Shown here piece after piece: positions 2,702-8,746 of a DNA stretch of 64,000 bases (position 1 is the first letter of the stretch; every line of letters starts with the position of its first letter). The notes under the pieces were generated by a model, which saw only the letters and a list, made by a program, of their open reading frames with translations, was not told the origin of the DNA and did not search any database. This DNA is from Myxococcales bacterium (GTDB lineage: Bacteria; Myxococcota_A; UBA9160; SZUA-336): contig JABSQV010000023.1 in NCBI GenBank assembly GCA_013215565.1, positions 1-64,000 of the forward strand, read 5' to 3'. Position numbers and translations under genes: made by a program.

Positions 2702-3823
2702 CTAGGCGCCGGGCGGCGGAAGTGCAAGCAGCTTTGCGAGCAGCCGCGTGACCGTATTGTTGCGCTCGAACTCGCTGCCGGTGGCCTCGTCCATCAGTTC
2801 GTAGTGCACCATCTGCTGCGCCAGCCGGACCATGATCACGGCAAACCGGAAGCCCGCGAACACCTGGTAGAAGTGCAGGTGCTTGACCGCGAGCCCGGAG
2901 CGCTCCTCGTAGTAAGCGACGGTCTCCTCGTAGCTCGGAAAGCCCTCGAGTCGCGGGGTCTCGATGCCCTCGCTGTGGTGTCGGTCCAGGAAGATCGACC
3001 AGCCGACGTCCTGTTCGGGGCTTCCCAGGGTCACCATCTCCCAATCCAGGACGGCGGCGGGGCGCGTCCCGTCGAAGATGATGTTGCCGATCCGGGCATC
3101 GCCCCAGACCAGGCCGATCGGCTCGTTCGTGGGCTTGTGCTTCTTGATCCACTCGAAAGCGGCCTCGGTCGTGGGTTGTGACCGGCCGCGCGCCGCCCAC
3201 TCCAGGTAGCGCTCGTAGTAGACGATCTGCTGATCGAGCGGGTCCTCGCCGAGTTCGGGCCGGTCGAGAAAGGCGAAGCCGGCCGCGCTCGGGTCGAGTC
3301 GATGAATCCGGGCCATACAGTCAAAGCCGCCGAGCCAGATCGCGCGGCGCTCCTCGGGCTCGATTTCGGTCAGCCACCCGGCCGAGTGGTACGGCGGGCT
3401 GTCCCCGGGGACCCGGCCCTCGACGCGCTTCATCACGTAGAACGGTGCGCCGAGCAGGTCGCTCCGCTCCTCGAACCAGAGCACCTTCGGTACCGGAACG
3501 TCGGTGGCTTCGAGCAGGGCCATCGTCCGGAACTGGAGTCCGAGGTCGTACTCGGGAAATACCTGGTAGCCGGTCGGCTGGATCCGGACCACGAGCGAGT
3601 CGCTGCACGGGCGGCCCTGCTCGGTCCAGGACGCGTCGAAGAGCAAGGTCTCGTTCGAGAAACCCGAACTCTGCGGCTCGGCGAGTTCCGAGACCTCGAG
3701 ATCGCGCGCGTCCCGAAGCTTCGACTCGAGCCAGGCTTCGAGACTCCGGCGGGTCTCATTCAGGTCGCGTTTCCAGGGCGTTGGCAAAGGCGCAGCCTCG
3801 CGGCGGTCGGTCCGTCCGGGCAT
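2702..3823 (-). CDS. APH-fold phosphotransferase family protein (ACAD10 / FadE36-like)
   Basis: About 373 residues with the aminoglycoside phosphotransferase/choline kinase fold. Visible features are the catalytic loop VWGDARIGNIIF, with Asp and Asn but Trp where many kinases have His, and a metal-binding LDWE some 15 residues later. The Trp form is common in the acyl-CoA-dehydrogenase-associated branch (human ACAD10 N-terminal domain, mycobacterial FadE36), which is linked to fatty acid or steroid breakdown rather than drug resistance. I used the ATG at 3823, which leaves room for the divergent gene at 3921; the frame stays open to 3940. The exact substrate cannot be read from sequence. Confidence 0.85.
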   Translation of the reverse strand: MPGRTDRREAAPLPTPWKRDLNETRRSLEAWLESKLRDARDLEVSELAEPQSSGFSNETLLFDASWTEQGRPCSDSLVVRIQPTGYQVFPEYDLGLQFRTMALLEATDVPVPKVLWFEERSDLLGAPFYVMKRVEGRVPGDSPPYHSAGWLTEIEPEERRAIWLGGFDCMARIHRLDPSAAGFAFLDRPELGEDPLDQQIVYYERYLEWAARGRSQPTTEAAFEWIKKHKPTNEPIGLVWGDARIGNIIFDGTRPAAVLDWEMVTLGSPEQDVGWSIFLDRHHSEGIETPRLEGFPSYEETVAYYEERSGLAVKHLHFYQVFAGFRFAVIMVRLAQQMVHYELMDEATGSEFERNNTVTRLLAKLLALPPPGA

Positions 3824-3920
3824 TCTACCCGCAAGCGCGGATTCCTGAACCCGAGGCCGCCGAGCTCGCCGCCCACGCCGGGATTGCGGCTTCGGCCCGA
3901 GTTGTGGCCTACTGCGACCC

Positions 3921-4358
3921 GTGGCCGGCGCTGTCCCCACCTATAAGCTCGAGTTTCCGTACAAGCGCAGCCTGGGCCCAATCGTGGGGGCGTTCCTGAC
4001 CGGGCTTCGCGATCGGCAGGTGCTCGGGATCCGCAGCGCGGCGGGCCGCGTGCTCGTCCCTCCGCTCGAATTCGACCCCGAGACCGGCGAAGAGAACCTG
4101 GAATGGACCCGGGTCGGAGAGGCCGGGGTGGTGCGGGGCTTCAGCTGGGTCGAGGAACCGTTGCCCAAGCACCCGCTCGATCGTCCCTTCGCCTGGGTAC
4201 TGGTCCAACTCGACGGCGCCGACACCAACCTGGTCCACGTGCTCGACGCAGACTCGCGCGCCGCGGTCGAAATCGGAATGCGCGTGCGGATCCGCTGGGC
4301 CTCCGAGACCCGCGGCCACATGAGCGATATCGCGTGCTTCGAGCCGGAGGCCGGGTAG
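3921..4358 (+). CDS. DUF35-type OB-fold protein without zinc ribbon
   Basis: A 145-residue protein with a GTG start. It resembles the N-terminal half of DUF35 proteins that pair with thiolase-like lipid-transfer proteins: it has YKRSLGPIVGAFLTGL, then VPPLEFDPETGEE where a zinc ribbon would be, then an OB-fold ending in RGHMSDIACF. It has no CxxC pairs, so it cannot bind zinc in the usual way. It overlaps the next gene by one base (TAGTG). From memory, mycobacterial Rv3521 joins such a module to a second one in a single chain. Here the two are separate genes. Probable role: a partner subunit presenting acyl-CoA to the thiolase/aldolase encoded just downstream. Confidence 0.8.
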   Translation: MAGAVPTYKLEFPYKRSLGPIVGAFLTGLRDRQVLGIRSAAGRVLVPPLEFDPETGEENLEWTRVGEAGVVRGFSWVEEPLPKHPLDRPFAWVLVQLDGADTNLVHVLDADSRAAVEIGMRVRIRWASETRGHMSDIACFEPEAG

Positions 4359-4891
4359 TGGCCGGCTCCGAACCCGTGAGCTTCATGCAGCAGATGGTCT
4401 CGCTCGAGTACAAGCTCCGGGCGAGCCCGGTCGCCGTCGACTTTGCGCGCAGGCTGTGTGCGGGAACGATCACGGGTCACGCCTGTCCCGAGTGCGGCCT
4501 CGTCTACACGCCGCCGAGCGGTTTCTGCTCGATCTGCGTGGTGCCCACGAATACGCGCGAGCACGAGGTCGAGATCGCGGACCGCGGCACGGTGACCGCG
4601 TTCACGATCGTCAACCCGATCCAGTATCGGGGCCAGAAGGAGCGTGAGGTCTACGCCGTTGCGAGCATTCTCCTCGACGGTGCGAGTGGTACGATCGGCC
4701 AGCAGCGGCTCGGCGACGTCGATCTCGACCGGGTTCGCATGGGAATGCGGGTCGAGGCGGTCTGGCTACCGGAAGAGAAGCGCAAGGACAGCGCCGCGAT
4801 GGGCGCCGGGCTCGCCAGTGCGATTCATCACTGGCGTCCCGTCGACGAGCCGGATACGCCGCTCGAGGAATTCGCGGAGCACATCATCTGA
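4358..4891 (+). CDS. DUF35 zinc-ribbon OB-fold protein (ChsH2 C-terminal domain-like)
   Basis: A 177-residue protein with a rubredoxin-like zinc ribbon, CPECG and CSIC about 17 residues apart near residues 45-70, followed by an OB-fold (GTVTAFTIVN to GMRVEAVW). In the family, DUF35 proteins bind thiolase-like partners such as Ltp2 and form retro-aldolase or thiolase complexes that bind acyl-CoA. The start is the GTG at 4358, overlapping the previous stop; a GTG at 4376 is also in frame. The stop overlaps the next ATG by one base (TGATG), so translation of the four genes is probably coupled. Confidence 0.9.
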   Translation: MAGSEPVSFMQQMVSLEYKLRASPVAVDFARRLCAGTITGHACPECGLVYTPPSGFCSICVVPTNTREHEVEIADRGTVTAFTIVNPIQYRGQKEREVYAVASILLDGASGTIGQQRLGDVDLDRVRMGMRVEAVWLPEEKRKDSAAMGAGLASAIHHWRPVDEPDTPLEEFAEHII

Positions 4892-5943
4892 TGCGCGATG
4901 TCGCGATCGTCTCTTTCTCGCAGCTGCGGGGCGATCCCGAAGGCGGCGTACCAGAGGTGCTGATGCTCGTGCCGGTCGTGCTCGAGGCGATCGAGAAGTC
5001 CGGCGTGCCGCGCAAGCAGATCGGCTTTACCTGCTCGGGCAGCTGCGATTACCTGACGGGTGCGCCCTTCGCGTTCGTGCAGAACCTGGCCGCGACCGGT
5101 GCCTGGCCTCCGATCTCGGAATCGCACCTCGAGATGGACGGAGCCTGGGCGCTGCAAGAGGCCTGGGTCCGGCTGCAGCACGGCGACATCGACACCGCGC
5201 TCGTGTTCGCGTCGGGGCGTCCCTCGAACAGCGACCTGCGCGAGGTCTTGTGTCTGCAACTCGATCCCTACTACCTGATGCCGCTCTGGCCCGACTACAT
5301 CTCGCTGGCGGCGCTCCAGGCGCAGGCCCTGCTCGCGCGGACCGGTCACACCGAGAAGGACCTGGCAGAGATCGTGGTGCGCGCGCGCCGGGCTGCACTC
5401 TCGAATCCGAATGCCGAGATTTCGGGAGAGTTCACGGCCTCGGAACTCCTGCAGGCGCCCTACGTCTCGTCGCCACTGCGCGCCCATGACTGCCCGCCGA
5501 TCTCGGACGGTGCGGCCGCGATGGTGCTGGTCGCCGGGGATCGCGCGCGCGACCTCTGCGAGCGACCCGCCTGGATCCGGGGAATTGATCACCGGATCGA
5601 CGCCCAGTATCCGGGGGTGCGCGACCTCTCCGTGTCGCCCTCGGCCCGGCTCGCGGGTGAACACGCGGGCGTCGGGCGGGGCCCGGTCGAGGTCGCCGAA
5701 CTCGCCGCGGCGTTTTCTCACGAGGAACTGATCCTGCGCGAGGCACTGGGTCTCGGAGACGAGGTGCTGGTGAATCCCTCGGGCGGCGCGCTCTGCTCGA
5801 ATCCGATGGTGGCGACCGGCCTGATCCGGATCGGCGAGGCGTTTCGCCAGATCCACGAGCAGGGCCGGGAACGCGTACTCGCCCACGCGAGTTCGGGGCC
5901 CTGCCTGCAGCAGAACCTGGTCTGCGTGCTGGAGGCGGACTGA
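4891..5943 (+). CDS. Thiolase-like protein (Ltp / DitF type) lacking the nucleophilic cysteine
   Basis: A 350-residue thiolase-fold protein. The stretch HLEMDGAWALQEAW matches the region that carries the acylated Cys in true thiolases; here Glu takes the place of Cys. The C-terminal half keeps the NPSGGALCSNP and AHASSGPCLQQN loops near residues 290 and 335. Ltp2-type steroid aldolases likewise do not use the Cys, so this protein is more likely an aldolase or scaffolding subunit than a thiolase. It directly follows two DUF35 genes and is followed with a one-base overlap by a second thiolase-like gene, so a DUF35/thiolase-like complex is the likely product. Confidence 0.85.
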   Translation: MRDVAIVSFSQLRGDPEGGVPEVLMLVPVVLEAIEKSGVPRKQIGFTCSGSCDYLTGAPFAFVQNLAATGAWPPISESHLEMDGAWALQEAWVRLQHGDIDTALVFASGRPSNSDLREVLCLQLDPYYLMPLWPDYISLAALQAQALLARTGHTEKDLAEIVVRARRAALSNPNAEISGEFTASELLQAPYVSSPLRAHDCPPISDGAAAMVLVAGDRARDLCERPAWIRGIDHRIDAQYPGVRDLSVSPSARLAGEHAGVGRGPVEVAELAAAFSHEELILREALGLGDEVLVNPSGGALCSNPMVATGLIRIGEAFRQIHEQGRERVLAHASSGPCLQQNLVCVLEAD

Positions 5944-7088
5944 TGGCCGAACGCTGCGCCGTGATCGGAATTGGACAGACCCACCACACGCGCCGGCGCG
6001 ACGACGTGTCGTTGGCTGGACTCGTGCGAGAGGCGGCGGTGCGCGCGCTCGAGGATGCGGAGCTTGGCTGGAAGGACATCGAGGCGGTCGTGATCGGGAC
6101 CGCGCCCGATCTCTTCGAGGGCGTGATGATGCCCGAGCTGTACCTGGCCGAGGCGCTCGGCGCCGTGGGCAAGCCGATCACGCGGGTGCATACGGCCGGC
6201 AGCGTCGGCGGCTCGACGGCCGTGGTCGCGACGCAGTTGGTTCAGTCCGGCGTGCACGAGCGGGTGCTCACGGTCGCGTTCGAAAAGCAGTCGGAGGGCG
6301 ACACCTCCTGGGGCCTCTCGGGCGGGCGCAGCGGCGGCGTGGGTGCGGGCGGCTACTTCGCGCCGCACATCAAGGCCTACATCGAGCGCTCGGGCGCGCC
6401 CGAACACGTCGGCTGGAAGGTGGCGGTAAAGGATCGGCAGAACGCGCTCCGGAATCCCTACGCGCACCTCAAGCTCGACAAGATCGACATCGACAGCGTG
6501 AAGGGCTCCGAAATGCTCTGGGCGCCGATCCGGCGGCTCGAGTCCTGTCCGACCTCGGACGGCGCGTGTGCGATGGTGCTCGCGAACGAGGCCGGGGGGC
6601 GCCGCGCGCCGCGCGCGCCGGCCTGGGTGCACGGCAAGGCGATCCGCAGCGAGAACGGCTTCTTCCCCGGGCGGGATCCGGTCAATCCGGTGGCCGGACA
6701 GGACTGTGCGGCCGACGTCTACCGTCAGGCCGGAATTACGGACCCGCGCCGCGAACTCGACATGATCGAGTGTTACGTGCCTTTCAGCTGGTACGAGCCG
6801 ATGTGGATGGAGAATCTCGGCATCGCCGAGAAGAACCGGGGCTGGGAACTCACCGACTCGGGCGCGACCGCGTTCGAGGGCGACATCCCCGTGAACTGTT
6901 CGGGCGGCGTGCTCTCGACCAACCCGATCGGGGCCTCGGGCATGCTGCGCTTCGCGGAGGCCGCGCTCCAGGTACGCGGCCAGGCGGGCGAGCGCCAGGT
7001 CGACGGTGCGCGCCGTGCGCTCGGCCACGCCTACGGCGGTGCCGCGCAGTATTTTGCGATGTGGGTCGTCGGGAGCGAGCGCCCCTAG
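5943..7088 (+). CDS. Thiolase-like protein, second of a pair (Ltp type)
   Basis: A 381-residue thiolase-fold protein. Its N-terminus has AVIGIGQTHH, the usual nucleophile loop reads VHTAGSVGGS (Gly where Cys would be), and the C-terminus has NCSGGVLSTNPIGASG and LGHAYGGAAQ, corresponding to the conserved Asn/Gly and His-Gly-Gly loops. The ATG overlaps the previous stop. Mycobacterial cholesterol clusters carry similar tandem Ltp genes next to a DUF35 gene (Rv3521-Rv3523, from memory). Side-chain cleavage of a steroid-like or branched acyl-CoA is a reasonable inference; the substrate is not shown. Confidence 0.87.
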   Translation: MAERCAVIGIGQTHHTRRRDDVSLAGLVREAAVRALEDAELGWKDIEAVVIGTAPDLFEGVMMPELYLAEALGAVGKPITRVHTAGSVGGSTAVVATQLVQSGVHERVLTVAFEKQSEGDTSWGLSGGRSGGVGAGGYFAPHIKAYIERSGAPEHVGWKVAVKDRQNALRNPYAHLKLDKIDIDSVKGSEMLWAPIRRLESCPTSDGACAMVLANEAGGRRAPRAPAWVHGKAIRSENGFFPGRDPVNPVAGQDCAADVYRQAGITDPRRELDMIECYVPFSWYEPMWMENLGIAEKNRGWELTDSGATAFEGDIPVNCSGGVLSTNPIGASGMLRFAEAALQVRGQAGERQVDGARRALGHAYGGAAQYFAMWVVGSERP

Positions 7089-7171: not shown

Positions 7172-7969
7172 ATGCCTGACCTGCTGGTCGAGAGAGAAGA
7201 CCACCTGCTGATCGTGACCATGAACCGGCCGCATCGAAAGAATGCGCAGACGCCGGGCATGTACATCCGGATGGCCGACGCCTGGCAGCAGGCCAGTGCG
7301 GACGAGGAGATTCGCTGCATCATCCTCACGGGTGCGGGCGGCAACTTCTCGTCGGGCGCGGACCTCCGCGCGATGGCGGGCGACGCGGACGAGGACGGGG
7401 TCGTCGACGTCCAGGCCCGGCTCAAGCTAGATCCGGACGTGATCTTCAAGGGGCTGCTCAAGTCCTATCGGCCGACCAAGCCGATCGTGGCCGCGGTCGA
7501 AGGGGTCGCGATTGCGGGCGGCACCGAGATCCTGCAGGGAACCGACATTCGGGTCGCGGGCGAGAGCGCGCGTTTCGGGGTGTCGGAGGCACGCTGGTCG
7601 CTCTACCCGATGGGGGGTTCGGCCGTGCGCTTGCGCCGGCAGATCCCGTATACGGAAGCGGCCGACATCCTGCTCACGGGAAAGCACATCGGGGCCGCGG
7701 AGGCGAAGTCCCTGGGGCTCATCGGATACGTGGTGCCGGACGGCGAGGCGCTCGCGAAGGCGAAGCAGATCGCGGCCACGATCGCTGAGAACGGGCCGCT
7801 CGCGGTCGAGGCGATCCTCAGGACCCTGCACGAGACCGACGGGATGAGCGAGGCCGAGGCCCTGAGCTACGAGAACGCGTATGGGGGCGCCGTCTTCGGG
7901 AGTGAGGACGCCAAGGAAGGTCCGCGCGCGTTTGCCGAGAAGCGCAAGCCCGCATTCAAGCGCCGCTGA
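7172..7969 (+). CDS. Enoyl-CoA hydratase/isomerase family protein (crotonase)
   Basis: A 265-residue crotonase. The oxyanion-hole segments are [10 protein letters not shown] (about residue 60) and [12 protein letters not shown] (about residue 112). The catalytic-Glu region reads [24 protein letters not shown] provides the ribosome site at 7166-7174. Relatives hydrate or isomerise enoyl-CoA esters in beta-oxidation. It lies 83 bases after the thiolase-like pair on the same strand and probably belongs to the same acyl-CoA pathway. Confidence 0.9.
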
Positions 7970-8036
7970 GCCCGCTCCGGGCGCCCGGGGCCTGGAAGCG
8001 CCCATACCCAGCCTTTCTTGGGTGGTCTCGGGTACA

Positions 8037-8054
8037 GTACTGACCAGTCAGTAC
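8037..8054. promoter_or_regulatory. TetR-type operator, perfect 8+2+8 inverted repeat
   Basis: GTACTGAC-CA-GTCAGTAC is a perfect palindrome with 8-base arms and a 2-base centre, 54 bases before the TetR start codon. This size and half-site match operators of TetR/FadR-like repressors, so autoregulation of tetR and the downstream RND genes is the simplest reading. No convincing -35/-10 pair was seen around it. Confidence 0.75.
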
Positions 8055-8107
8055 CGATCTCAATCCTAACGCTGCGACGAACCCGGAACTGCGAGAGGTC
8101 GAGCGAG

Positions 8108-8746
8108 ATGCCGAATTCTGATCAGGCCCGGGTGCGCGAGAAGCGACATCGGATGCTGCAGGCGGCGCAGGAGGTGTTCGTGGAACGCGGCTTCGACGCC
8201 GCGGGCACGGACGAAATCGCGCGCCGGGCCGGGGTCAGCAAGGGAACGCTCTACAACTTCTTCGATTCGAAGACCGATCTCTTGCTGTCTTCGGTCGAGG
8301 CGCAGTTGGAGCGGAGCCGGGCCCTGGTCGAGGCCGCGCTCAACGAGAGCGGCGATACGCCATTGAAGCAACTGGTCGCCGGAATCCGCGCACTGCTGCT
8401 GGCGGTTGTGCCTGATCGAGCCGGCCCGGAACAGCTGCTGCTCGATCAGGTGTGGGGCATCGTCGCGCGCGACTCGGCTGCCCGTTCCCGTGTCTTCGGG
8501 CTGCTTCAGGCTTTCTTTCGCGATCGTGAGATCGAACTGCGGGTGCTGCTCGAAAACGGCGTAAAGGCCGGGGCCGTGCGCAGCGACATCGACGCGGGCG
8601 AGGTGACGCTGCTGCTGTTTTCGATTGTCCACGGCCTGATCTACCGCGCGCGCTTCGACCCGGGTCGCATCGACCCGGTCCGCAGCTTCGAAGCACTCTT
8701 CGATCTGCTCCAGGGCGGACTCTTCACCGAGGGGGTTCGCGCATGA
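8108..8746 (+). CDS. TetR/AcrR family transcriptional regulator
   Basis: A 212-residue repressor-type protein. The N-terminal helix-turn-helix spans about residues 15-60 (RMLQAAQEVFVERGF, then GTDEIARRAGVSKGTLYNFF), typical of TetR. The C-terminal ligand domain is not specific enough to predict an inducer. The ATG at 8108 places the HTH at the usual distance from the N-terminus. It overlaps the next gene by four bases (ATGA), so it is the first gene of a three-gene efflux operon with an operator upstream. Confidence 0.93.
   Translation: MPNSDQARVREKRHRMLQAAQEVFVERGFDAAGTDEIARRAGVSKGTLYNFFDSKTDLLLSSVEAQLERSRALVEAALNESGDTPLKQLVAGIRALLLAVVPDRAGPEQLLLDQVWGIVARDSAARSRVFGLLQAFFRDREIELRVLLENGVKAGAVRSDIDAGEVTLLLFSIVHGLIYRARFDPGRIDPVRSFEALFDLLQGGLFTEGVRA

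Follow-up and report, generated by a model that had tools for sequence, protein, structure and literature searches.

A conserved DUF35-DUF35-Ltp4-Ltp3 gene set in a Myxococcales genome and its probable role as a heteromeric retro-aldolase

Introduction

Contig JABSQV010000023.1 of a Myxococcales bacterium (assembly GCA_013215565.1) carries, at positions 3921 to 7088 of its first 64,000 nucleotides, four consecutive genes for two DUF35-type and two thiolase-like proteins; the whole stretch of 64,000 nucleotides that was analysed is called the window. The question raised by this locus is what reaction can be performed by thiolase-like proteins in which the nucleophile cysteine is replaced, and whether the four products act together on steroid-like side chains. 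An earlier note on this DNA had proposed a four-subunit aldolase or thiolase complex for steroid-like or branched side chains in a non-actinobacterial genome, and the last point, the host, was borne out. The genome is a draft of 3.8 Mb in 154 contigs with 91.1% completeness (G000; numbers with G, C and L label genomes, contigs and loci). Its class may be UBA9160 of GTDB.

The four genes are read here, with a probability of about two in three, as encoding one heteromeric thiolase-fold carbon-carbon lyase of the Ltp3-Ltp4 kind with two DUF35 partners. A heteromeric retro-aldolase for branched acyl-coenzyme A (acyl-CoA) side chains is the most likely function. The reading rests on homology, gene order, residue conservation and the predicted folds of DUF35A and Ltp4. 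The set is a well-conserved one of a known enzyme kind in little-studied bacteria, and its split DUF35 genes are common.

Results

Gene set and its conservation

Four reading frames are open at 3921-4358, 4358-4891, 4891-5943 and 5943-7088. The stop and start codons overlap by one base at 4358 (TAG/GTG), 4891 (TGA/ATG) and 5943 (TGA/ATG). The overlapping arrangement of two DUF35-type and two thiolase-like genes given in the earlier note was confirmed by the reading frames, the junction bases and the Pfam domains. Both DUF35 genes start with GTG and these starts are less certain; alternative in-frame starts are present at 3984 and 4020 for DUF35A and at 4103, 4334, 4376, 4385 and 4394 for DUF35B. 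The genes and their key codons are the following.

3921..4358, + strand: DUF35A, 145 amino acids, OB-fold and ribbon region without zinc ligands, corresponding to the N-terminal half of the fused actinobacterial protein (Rv3521 type); PF01796
4358..4891, + strand: DUF35B, 177 amino acids, four zinc-ribbon cysteines, corresponding to the C-terminal half of the fused protein; PF01796
4891..5943, + strand: Ltp4-like thiolase-fold protein, 350 amino acids, probable pseudoenzyme partner; NF005924/PRK07937
5131..5133, + strand: codon of Ltp4 Glu81 at the thiolase nucleophile position (H79-x-E81-M-D83); conservation counts
5943..7088, + strand: Ltp3-like thiolase-fold protein, 381 amino acids, probable catalytic subunit; NF006180/PRK08313
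6198..6200, + strand: codon of Ltp3 Gly86, which replaces the nucleophile cysteine; conservation counts
6774..6776, + strand: codon of Ltp3 Tyr278 (YVPF), aligned with the catalytic Tyr294 of TcLtp2 (YDHF); alignment to 6ok1_A

Further loci were found through Ltp4, and all neighbourhood counts are conditional on Ltp4. The scan of named genomes covered the best 80 of 589 confirmed stretches, from the phyla Actinomycetota, Chloroflexota and Myxococcota. The 140 Ltp4 matches, less 12 repeats, gave 128 distinct loci, and 17 incomplete loci were also left out of the residue and fusion counts. The order DUF35A-DUF35B-Ltp4-Ltp3 on one strand was observed in 111 of the 128 loci; in the remaining 17 a contig end removes or cuts a part, as judged from coordinates and contig ranges. 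The recurrence of this order shows that the arrangement in the window is not due to chance. The one-base overlap of ltp4 and ltp3 is the commonest junction (50 of the 110 loci with a start found, among the 111). Within Myxococcota, the phylum of this genome, PRK07937 was detected in 66 of 282 genomes at an expectation value (E) of 1e-30, and 57 of these scored above the cut-off of the model.

The DUF35 pair

Both small proteins matched the Pfam domain OB_ChsH2_C (PF01796) with 47.6 bits for DUF35A and 48.2 bits for DUF35B, above the cut-off of 27.1. The zinc-ribbon model PF12172 remained below threshold on DUF35B (13.5 bits, cut-off 23.2), in which the ribbon cysteines C43, C46, C57 and C60 (CPECG...CSIC) are present. 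The same model gave no match to DUF35A in the Pfam scan and no cysteine stands at the aligned ribbon places, so DUF35A was placed under the OB-fold domain only and not as a zinc-binding protein.

The DUF35A profile (A3) matched 3irb (E 6.6e-09) and 6ok1_B (E 7.5e-05). In the AlphaFold2 (AF2) model of DUF35A, with a mean predicted local distance difference test (pLDDT) score of 92.1, residues 17-144 align to the ChsH2 DUF35 chain 6ok1_D with Z 12.9 and a root-mean-square deviation (rmsd) of 2.8 over 122 residues of the 127-residue chain. Matches with Z from 12.9 to 9.6 were the DUF35 chains in the complexes of Ltp2, Sal, the archaeal thiolase, BbsAB and PhlABC, together with two DUF35 proteins from Sulfolobus; the next, unrelated rows were at Z 6.1. 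The earlier statement that one DUF35 protein has lost the zinc ribbon therefore holds for the zinc ligands and not for the ribbon region as a whole, which is covered by the alignment to 6ok1_D.

The zinc ligands of DUF35B vary among homologues: all four cysteines (CCCC) are present in 51 of 111 and the rest are without one or more, with CCCD in 25 of 111 and other patterns in the remainder. In the genome of the window, the ChsH2 zinc-ribbon model gave 12 matches, 11 of them above cut-off (L001-L008 among the loci). At least two of the matches (L136:12812-14382 and L138:8215-11299) adjoin thiolase-like genes with YDGF or YDAF, so that several DUF35/thiolase-like pairs are present in one genome.

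The two thiolase-fold proteins

Pfam thiolase domains were found in both large proteins. Against the NCBIfam models, Ltp4 scored 485.1 bits in NF005924/PRK07937 (cut-off 419) and Ltp3 scored 625.6 bits in NF006180/PRK08313 (cut-off 514). By synteny the two large proteins are Ltp4 and Ltp3 and the DUF35 pair is of the Rv3521 type, in a comparison without mycobacterial sequences. The AF2 model of Ltp4 (pLDDT 88.0, predicted template modelling score 0.90) is a whole thiolase fold; it aligned to 6et9_C with Z 43.6 and rmsd 2.1 over 343 residues, and to the Ltp2 and Sal chains with Z 37.0 and 37.3, respectively. Sequence searches of the PDB gave no chain named Ltp3 or Ltp4, the best matches being only other thiolases.

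The nucleophile position reads glutamate in Ltp4 (Glu81 in 108 of 111 loci, aspartate in 3) and glycine in Ltp3 (Gly86, 111 of 111), in accordance with the earlier note. Its description of both proteins as "Cys-less" is right for this position and not for the whole protein, as Cys338 is found in Ltp4 and Cys202 in Ltp3. The count for Cys338 (97 of 111) is biased upward because one of the two locus search patterns contained it. The earlier note had also named a conserved catalytic cysteine elsewhere as evidence that would speak against its proposal. Cys202 is conserved in 111 of 111 sequences; it lies within the motif C-P-[TS]-S-D-G, which is common to an SCP2-thiolase, and is therefore not regarded as a new nucleophile.

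The replaced nucleophile bears on another reading, in which the set is a DUF35-dependent acyltransferase or thiolase of the PhlABC, BbsAB or archaeal acetoacetyl-CoA thiolase type and not an aldolase. The Ltp4 model is matched best by thiolases and SCP2-thiolases (6et9, 6esq, 7yvy, 3zbk), of which the top two come from a DUF35 complex, and DUF35A also matches the BbsA and PhlB chains. In thiolases and PhlC-type acyltransferases, however, the acyl group is carried by the nucleophile cysteine, and the canonical cysteine was found in none of the 111 Ltp3 and none of the 111 Ltp4 sequences, which leaves such a reaction improbable.

Ltp3 keeps the catalytic tyrosine of the Ltp2 aldolase. Tyr278 and Asn327 are present in 111 of 111 sequences, and position 362 is histidine in 93 and glutamine in 18. 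In the alignment to the Ltp2 chain 6ok1_A, Tyr278 corresponds to the catalytic Tyr294, Pro280 to His296 and Pro328 to Tyr344. In Sal the substrate hydroxyl also contacts the backbone of Gly89, and an equivalent glycine is proposed for Ltp2, according to the available part of PMC12329534. Ltp3 Gly86 may take the place of Sal Gly89. In Ltp4, His79, Asp83 and His332 are invariant (His79 and Asp83 in 111 of 111), and the segment preceding the NPSGG motif, which Ltp3 and SCP2-thiolases carry, is missing.

The NCBIfam name of PRK07937, "lipid-transfer protein", suggests that the proteins could be non-catalytic lipid-transfer or scaffold proteins. This reading is very unlikely, even more so than an acyltransferase: Ltp3 has its invariant tyrosine at the aldolase catalytic position, the four proteins contain no SCP2 domain at E 0.1 in Pfam, and a genetic need for side-chain degradation in Rhodococcus is cited in the available text of PMC6273163.

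Fused and split DUF35 genes

DUF35A and DUF35B form one reading frame in 41 of 111 loci and two in 70. These fusions support a joint action of the two DUF35 proteins in a shared complex, and the pairing of DUF35 with thiolase-fold proteins suggested earlier was likewise supported. A chain joining DUF35B to Ltp4, or Ltp4 to Ltp3, was found in none of the 111 loci. Fused genes occur in Tsukamurella, Nocardia, Nonomuraea and several Myxococcota, and split genes in metagenome-assembled genomes (MAGs) of Acidimicrobiia, among others; the earlier suggestion that the split marks non-actinobacteria was accordingly dropped. On a quick tree of the 111 rows (fast method, mixture off, two long branches adjoining) the state changes 10 times, 7 of these changes being forced by starred branches. 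The split is thus ordinary, and it was rejected as the novelty of the locus.

The nearest tree rows of the window copy are L044 (a Myxococcales MAG with 73% identity) and L146 (G138, of the same family). Together with actinobacterial sets and the second copies of G093, G275 and G079, the window copy belongs to a clade of 15 rows (Shimodaira-Hasegawa-like approximate likelihood ratio test, 98-99).

Neighbouring genes and the steroid link

The gene downstream of the set is the following.

7172..7969, + strand: EchA19-type enoyl-CoA hydratase, 83 bp downstream of the set, perhaps in the same operon; PRK07799

Its product scored 399.9 bits with PRK07799 (cut-off 316) and 362.6 bits with the EchA19 (Rv3516) equivalog, below the cut-off of 400. 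As a general feature of the set this neighbour was rejected, as it was found within 1.5 kb in 4 of 14 loci of the clade of the window and in 6 of 56 others, counting only loci with 1.5 kb on both sides. The window also carries near the set a PhyH-type (phytanoyl-CoA dioxygenase) protein at 1252-2685, an APH-type phosphotransferase at 2702-3940 on the - strand and a TetR regulator at 8018-8746.

In some other genomes the surroundings of the set resemble those of steroid degradation. The Tsukamurella record with the fused set carries genes for a crotonase, an AMP-binding protein, P450s, a "steroid 3-ketoacyl-CoA thiolase", a CoA-transferase and MlaD, and similar kinds of neighbours are listed for Rv3515c-Rv3523 in the available part of PMC6429209. 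In G012, a member of Myxococcota outside the class of the window, a compact steroid-catabolism-like cluster surrounds a fused DUF35-Ltp4-Ltp3 set (L133, G012:C8:168001-187000). Its best matches to HsaA (420 bits, cut-off 450), HsaD (182, cut-off 400) and KstR (120, cut-off 280) are below cut-off; a PRK07798 ligase above cut-off, an EchA19-type hydratase (395 bits, cut-off 400; PRK07799 above cut-off) and a KshA_C match of 176.8 bits are also present. A true Ltp2 lies about 4 kb from the set in L105, a Frankiales MAG (6ok1_A, E 4.9e-187). A further SCP2-like gene that L053 carries near the set was rejected as Ltp2, its best match being an SCP2-thiolase.

Co-occurrence with ring-degradation markers was tabulated for the 282 genomes, with p-values that ignore genome relatedness. 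The cuts for HsaA (1e-80) and KstD (1e-130) were the choice of the analyst, and one scoring step took only 4 candidates per genome. Outside the class of the window, HsaA was found in 15 of 17 Ltp4 genomes and in 1 of 206 without Ltp4, and KstD in 15 of 17 and 4 of 206, respectively. KshA_C (PF19298) was rejected as a steroid marker because it is too broad (100 of 282 genomes). At 170 bits it occurs in 15 of 17 against 1 of 206 genomes outside the class and in 2 of 49 against 0 of 10 inside, but this is weak, since the cut was picked after viewing the list. In the available part of a 2018 metagenome survey, complete ring pathways are given only for Actinobacteria and Proteobacteria (PMC5790920); under the taxonomy then in use, Myxococcota may have fallen within the Proteobacteria. 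The present distribution suggests that steroid side-chain-type genes occur in Chloroflexota and Myxococcota.

Discussion

Points that weigh against the reading

Several observations weigh against a heteromeric Ltp3-Ltp4 lyase acting on side chains in this organism. At the residue level, Ltp3 lacks both known general acids, as Tyr344 of Ltp2 is replaced by Pro328 and Cys304 of Sal, by motif, by Pro280; Ltp3 is therefore described as working like the Ltp2 and Sal aldolases and not as a member of either. The HDxF histidine of Ltp4 (86 of 111) is alanine in the window (Ala272) and in L146. The window set lies in the divergent clade, and the other copy of its genome (G000:C63, L018/L128) lies in the main part of the tree. 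Within the class, where the set is frequent (49 of 59 genomes), neither HsaA (18 of 49 Ltp4 genomes against 1 of 10 others, p 0.14) nor KstD (23 of 49 against 2 of 10, p 0.17) is linked to it. The genome of the window lacks a strong KstD (best match 269.8 bits against a cut-off of 788), and its HsaA-like flavin monooxygenase (G000:C112:52662-53801) reached only 367.5 bits against a cut-off of 450.

From the literature, deletion of ltp3 or ltp4 in M. neoaurum WIII leaves the formation of 4-HBC, which needs atf1, unaffected (available part of PMC10398937). This is a different step, yet it is a negative result for a general role of Ltp3/Ltp4. Literature searches, mostly without subscription papers, found no work on purified Ltp3/Ltp4 or Rv3521.

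Substrate of the set

The same observations bear on the substrate. The enzyme may be the same heteromeric aldolase and yet have, in this class, a natural substrate other than a sterol, namely a branched isoprenoid or another branched-chain acyl-CoA, with no degradation of the steroid ring; this is a real possibility, somewhat short of even odds. Apart from the frequency of the set in the class with no link to HsaA, KstD or high-scoring KshA, and the missing strong KstD, it is favoured by the second copy in the same genome. That copy adjoins an alcohol dehydrogenase (closest model TIGR03989, NDMA-dependent type) and an acyl-CoA dehydrogenase (closest model TIGR03204), both below cut-off, and the scan of nine neighbours named no ring gene; its contig also carries a PRK07798-type ligase above cut-off. 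Against a non-sterol substrate stand the EchA19-type neighbour, two PRK07798-type (FadD19-like) ligases above cut-off and 27 match rows to a P450 from the Tsukamurella record of sterol type (of which two, on C122, are perhaps a single gene), the best five being 36-40% identical.

Partial side-chain-like machinery is thus present in this genome, and a ring-degradation pathway is not supported by the markers found. Full steroid degradation, as might be read from the neighbourhood, was not supported, given the KstD and HsaA scores and the in-class table. Of the earlier proposal of a steroid side-chain aldolase, the closest known function stands, and a steroid substrate in this organism is plausible with weak support.

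For actinobacteria, the closest known function is described in PMC6678751, in the part available, as desaturation, C28 carboxylation and hydration, after which a heteromeric aldol-lyase Ltp3-Ltp4 is proposed to cut C24-C25. A role of the set on C24-branched sterol side chains is reported there and in the available text of PMC6273163 for actinobacteria only. The gene echA19 is reported to be not essential, with sitosterol degradation delayed in its absence.

Proposed mechanism

We infer a complex in which Ltp3 and Ltp4 pair as the two halves of a thiolase dimer, each half carrying a separate DUF35 cap, one with the zinc ribbon and one without zinc ligands. Ltp3 would perform the chemistry: Tyr278 would take the proton from the beta-hydroxyl of the branched acyl-CoA side chain, and the retro-aldol cleavage of the carbon-carbon bond would yield a short acyl-CoA and a ketone or aldehyde. 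The general acid would be neither the Tyr344 of Ltp2 nor, by motif, the Cys304 of Sal, and His362 is a candidate. Ltp4 would be a pseudoenzyme shaping the pocket, and the neighbouring EchA19-type hydratase could supply the beta-hydroxyl.

A wider proposal is offered tentatively and is considered doubtful. The set may be an asymmetric aldolase built from four distinct chains and, with that, a third catalytic design within the thiolase fold. Its active subunit would be Ltp3, with a lone tyrosine base and a general acid that differs from those of both Ltp2 and Sal. Ltp4 would be an acidic pseudo-protomer (Glu or Asp at the nucleophile position of all sequences counted), and the two DUF35 chains would be specialised, one having given up zinc. 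In this class of Myxococcota the set would serve a branched-side-chain pathway apart from steroid-ring degradation.

According to the reported genetics, Ltp3 and Ltp4 are linked to removing the C24 branch from plant sterols. Tests on single subunits are made practical by the conserved residues (Ltp3 Tyr278, Gly86 and Asn327; Ltp4 His79, Glu/Asp81, Asp83 and His332) and by the DUF35 chains being separate.

Comparison with known systems

Among actinobacterial sets of the Rv3521-Ltp4 (Rv3522)-Ltp3 (Rv3523) kind, those of Tsukamurella, Nocardia and Nonomuraea have the order DUF35-DUF35-Ltp4-Ltp3 of the window, and the neighbours of the Tsukamurella set are of the kinds listed for Rv3515c-Rv3523. 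The relation to Rv3521-Rv3523 pointed out in the earlier note is supported by family and synteny. In the actinobacterial set the DUF35 pair is one chain (309 amino acids annotated in Tsukamurella; about 303 in Rv3521), whereas in the window it is two.

The BbsAB benzoylsuccinyl-CoA thiolase (7PXP) and the archaeal thiolase/HMG-CoA synthase system (6ESQ) also combine thiolase-fold and DUF35 proteins and are structural matches of both window models. They are thiolases by name, unlike the window set, which is without the nucleophile cysteine.

The Ltp2-ChsH2 aldolase (6OK1) is closer, with a thiolase fold and DUF35, no nucleophile cysteine in a region that is glycine-rich there, and a Tyr294 equivalent to Ltp3 Tyr278. 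It differs in having one kind each of thiolase-fold chain and DUF35, and in its His296 and Tyr344 as against Pro280 and Pro328 of Ltp3. The Sal-Shy (DUF35) aldolase (9MYR) resembles the proposed set in its thiolase-fold dimer flanked by DUF35 domains and in its catalytic Tyr302, as described in the available part of PMC12329534. There, Sal Cys304 is catalytic, in contrast to the proline at this motif position of Ltp3, and the zinc finger is of the Cys3His1 type, in contrast to the four-cysteine ribbon of DUF35B. Ltp2 and Sal each employ a single DUF35 chain in two copies, whereas two different chains are proposed here. The catalytic tyrosine of their YDHF and YDCY motifs is kept in the window as Tyr278 of Ltp3.

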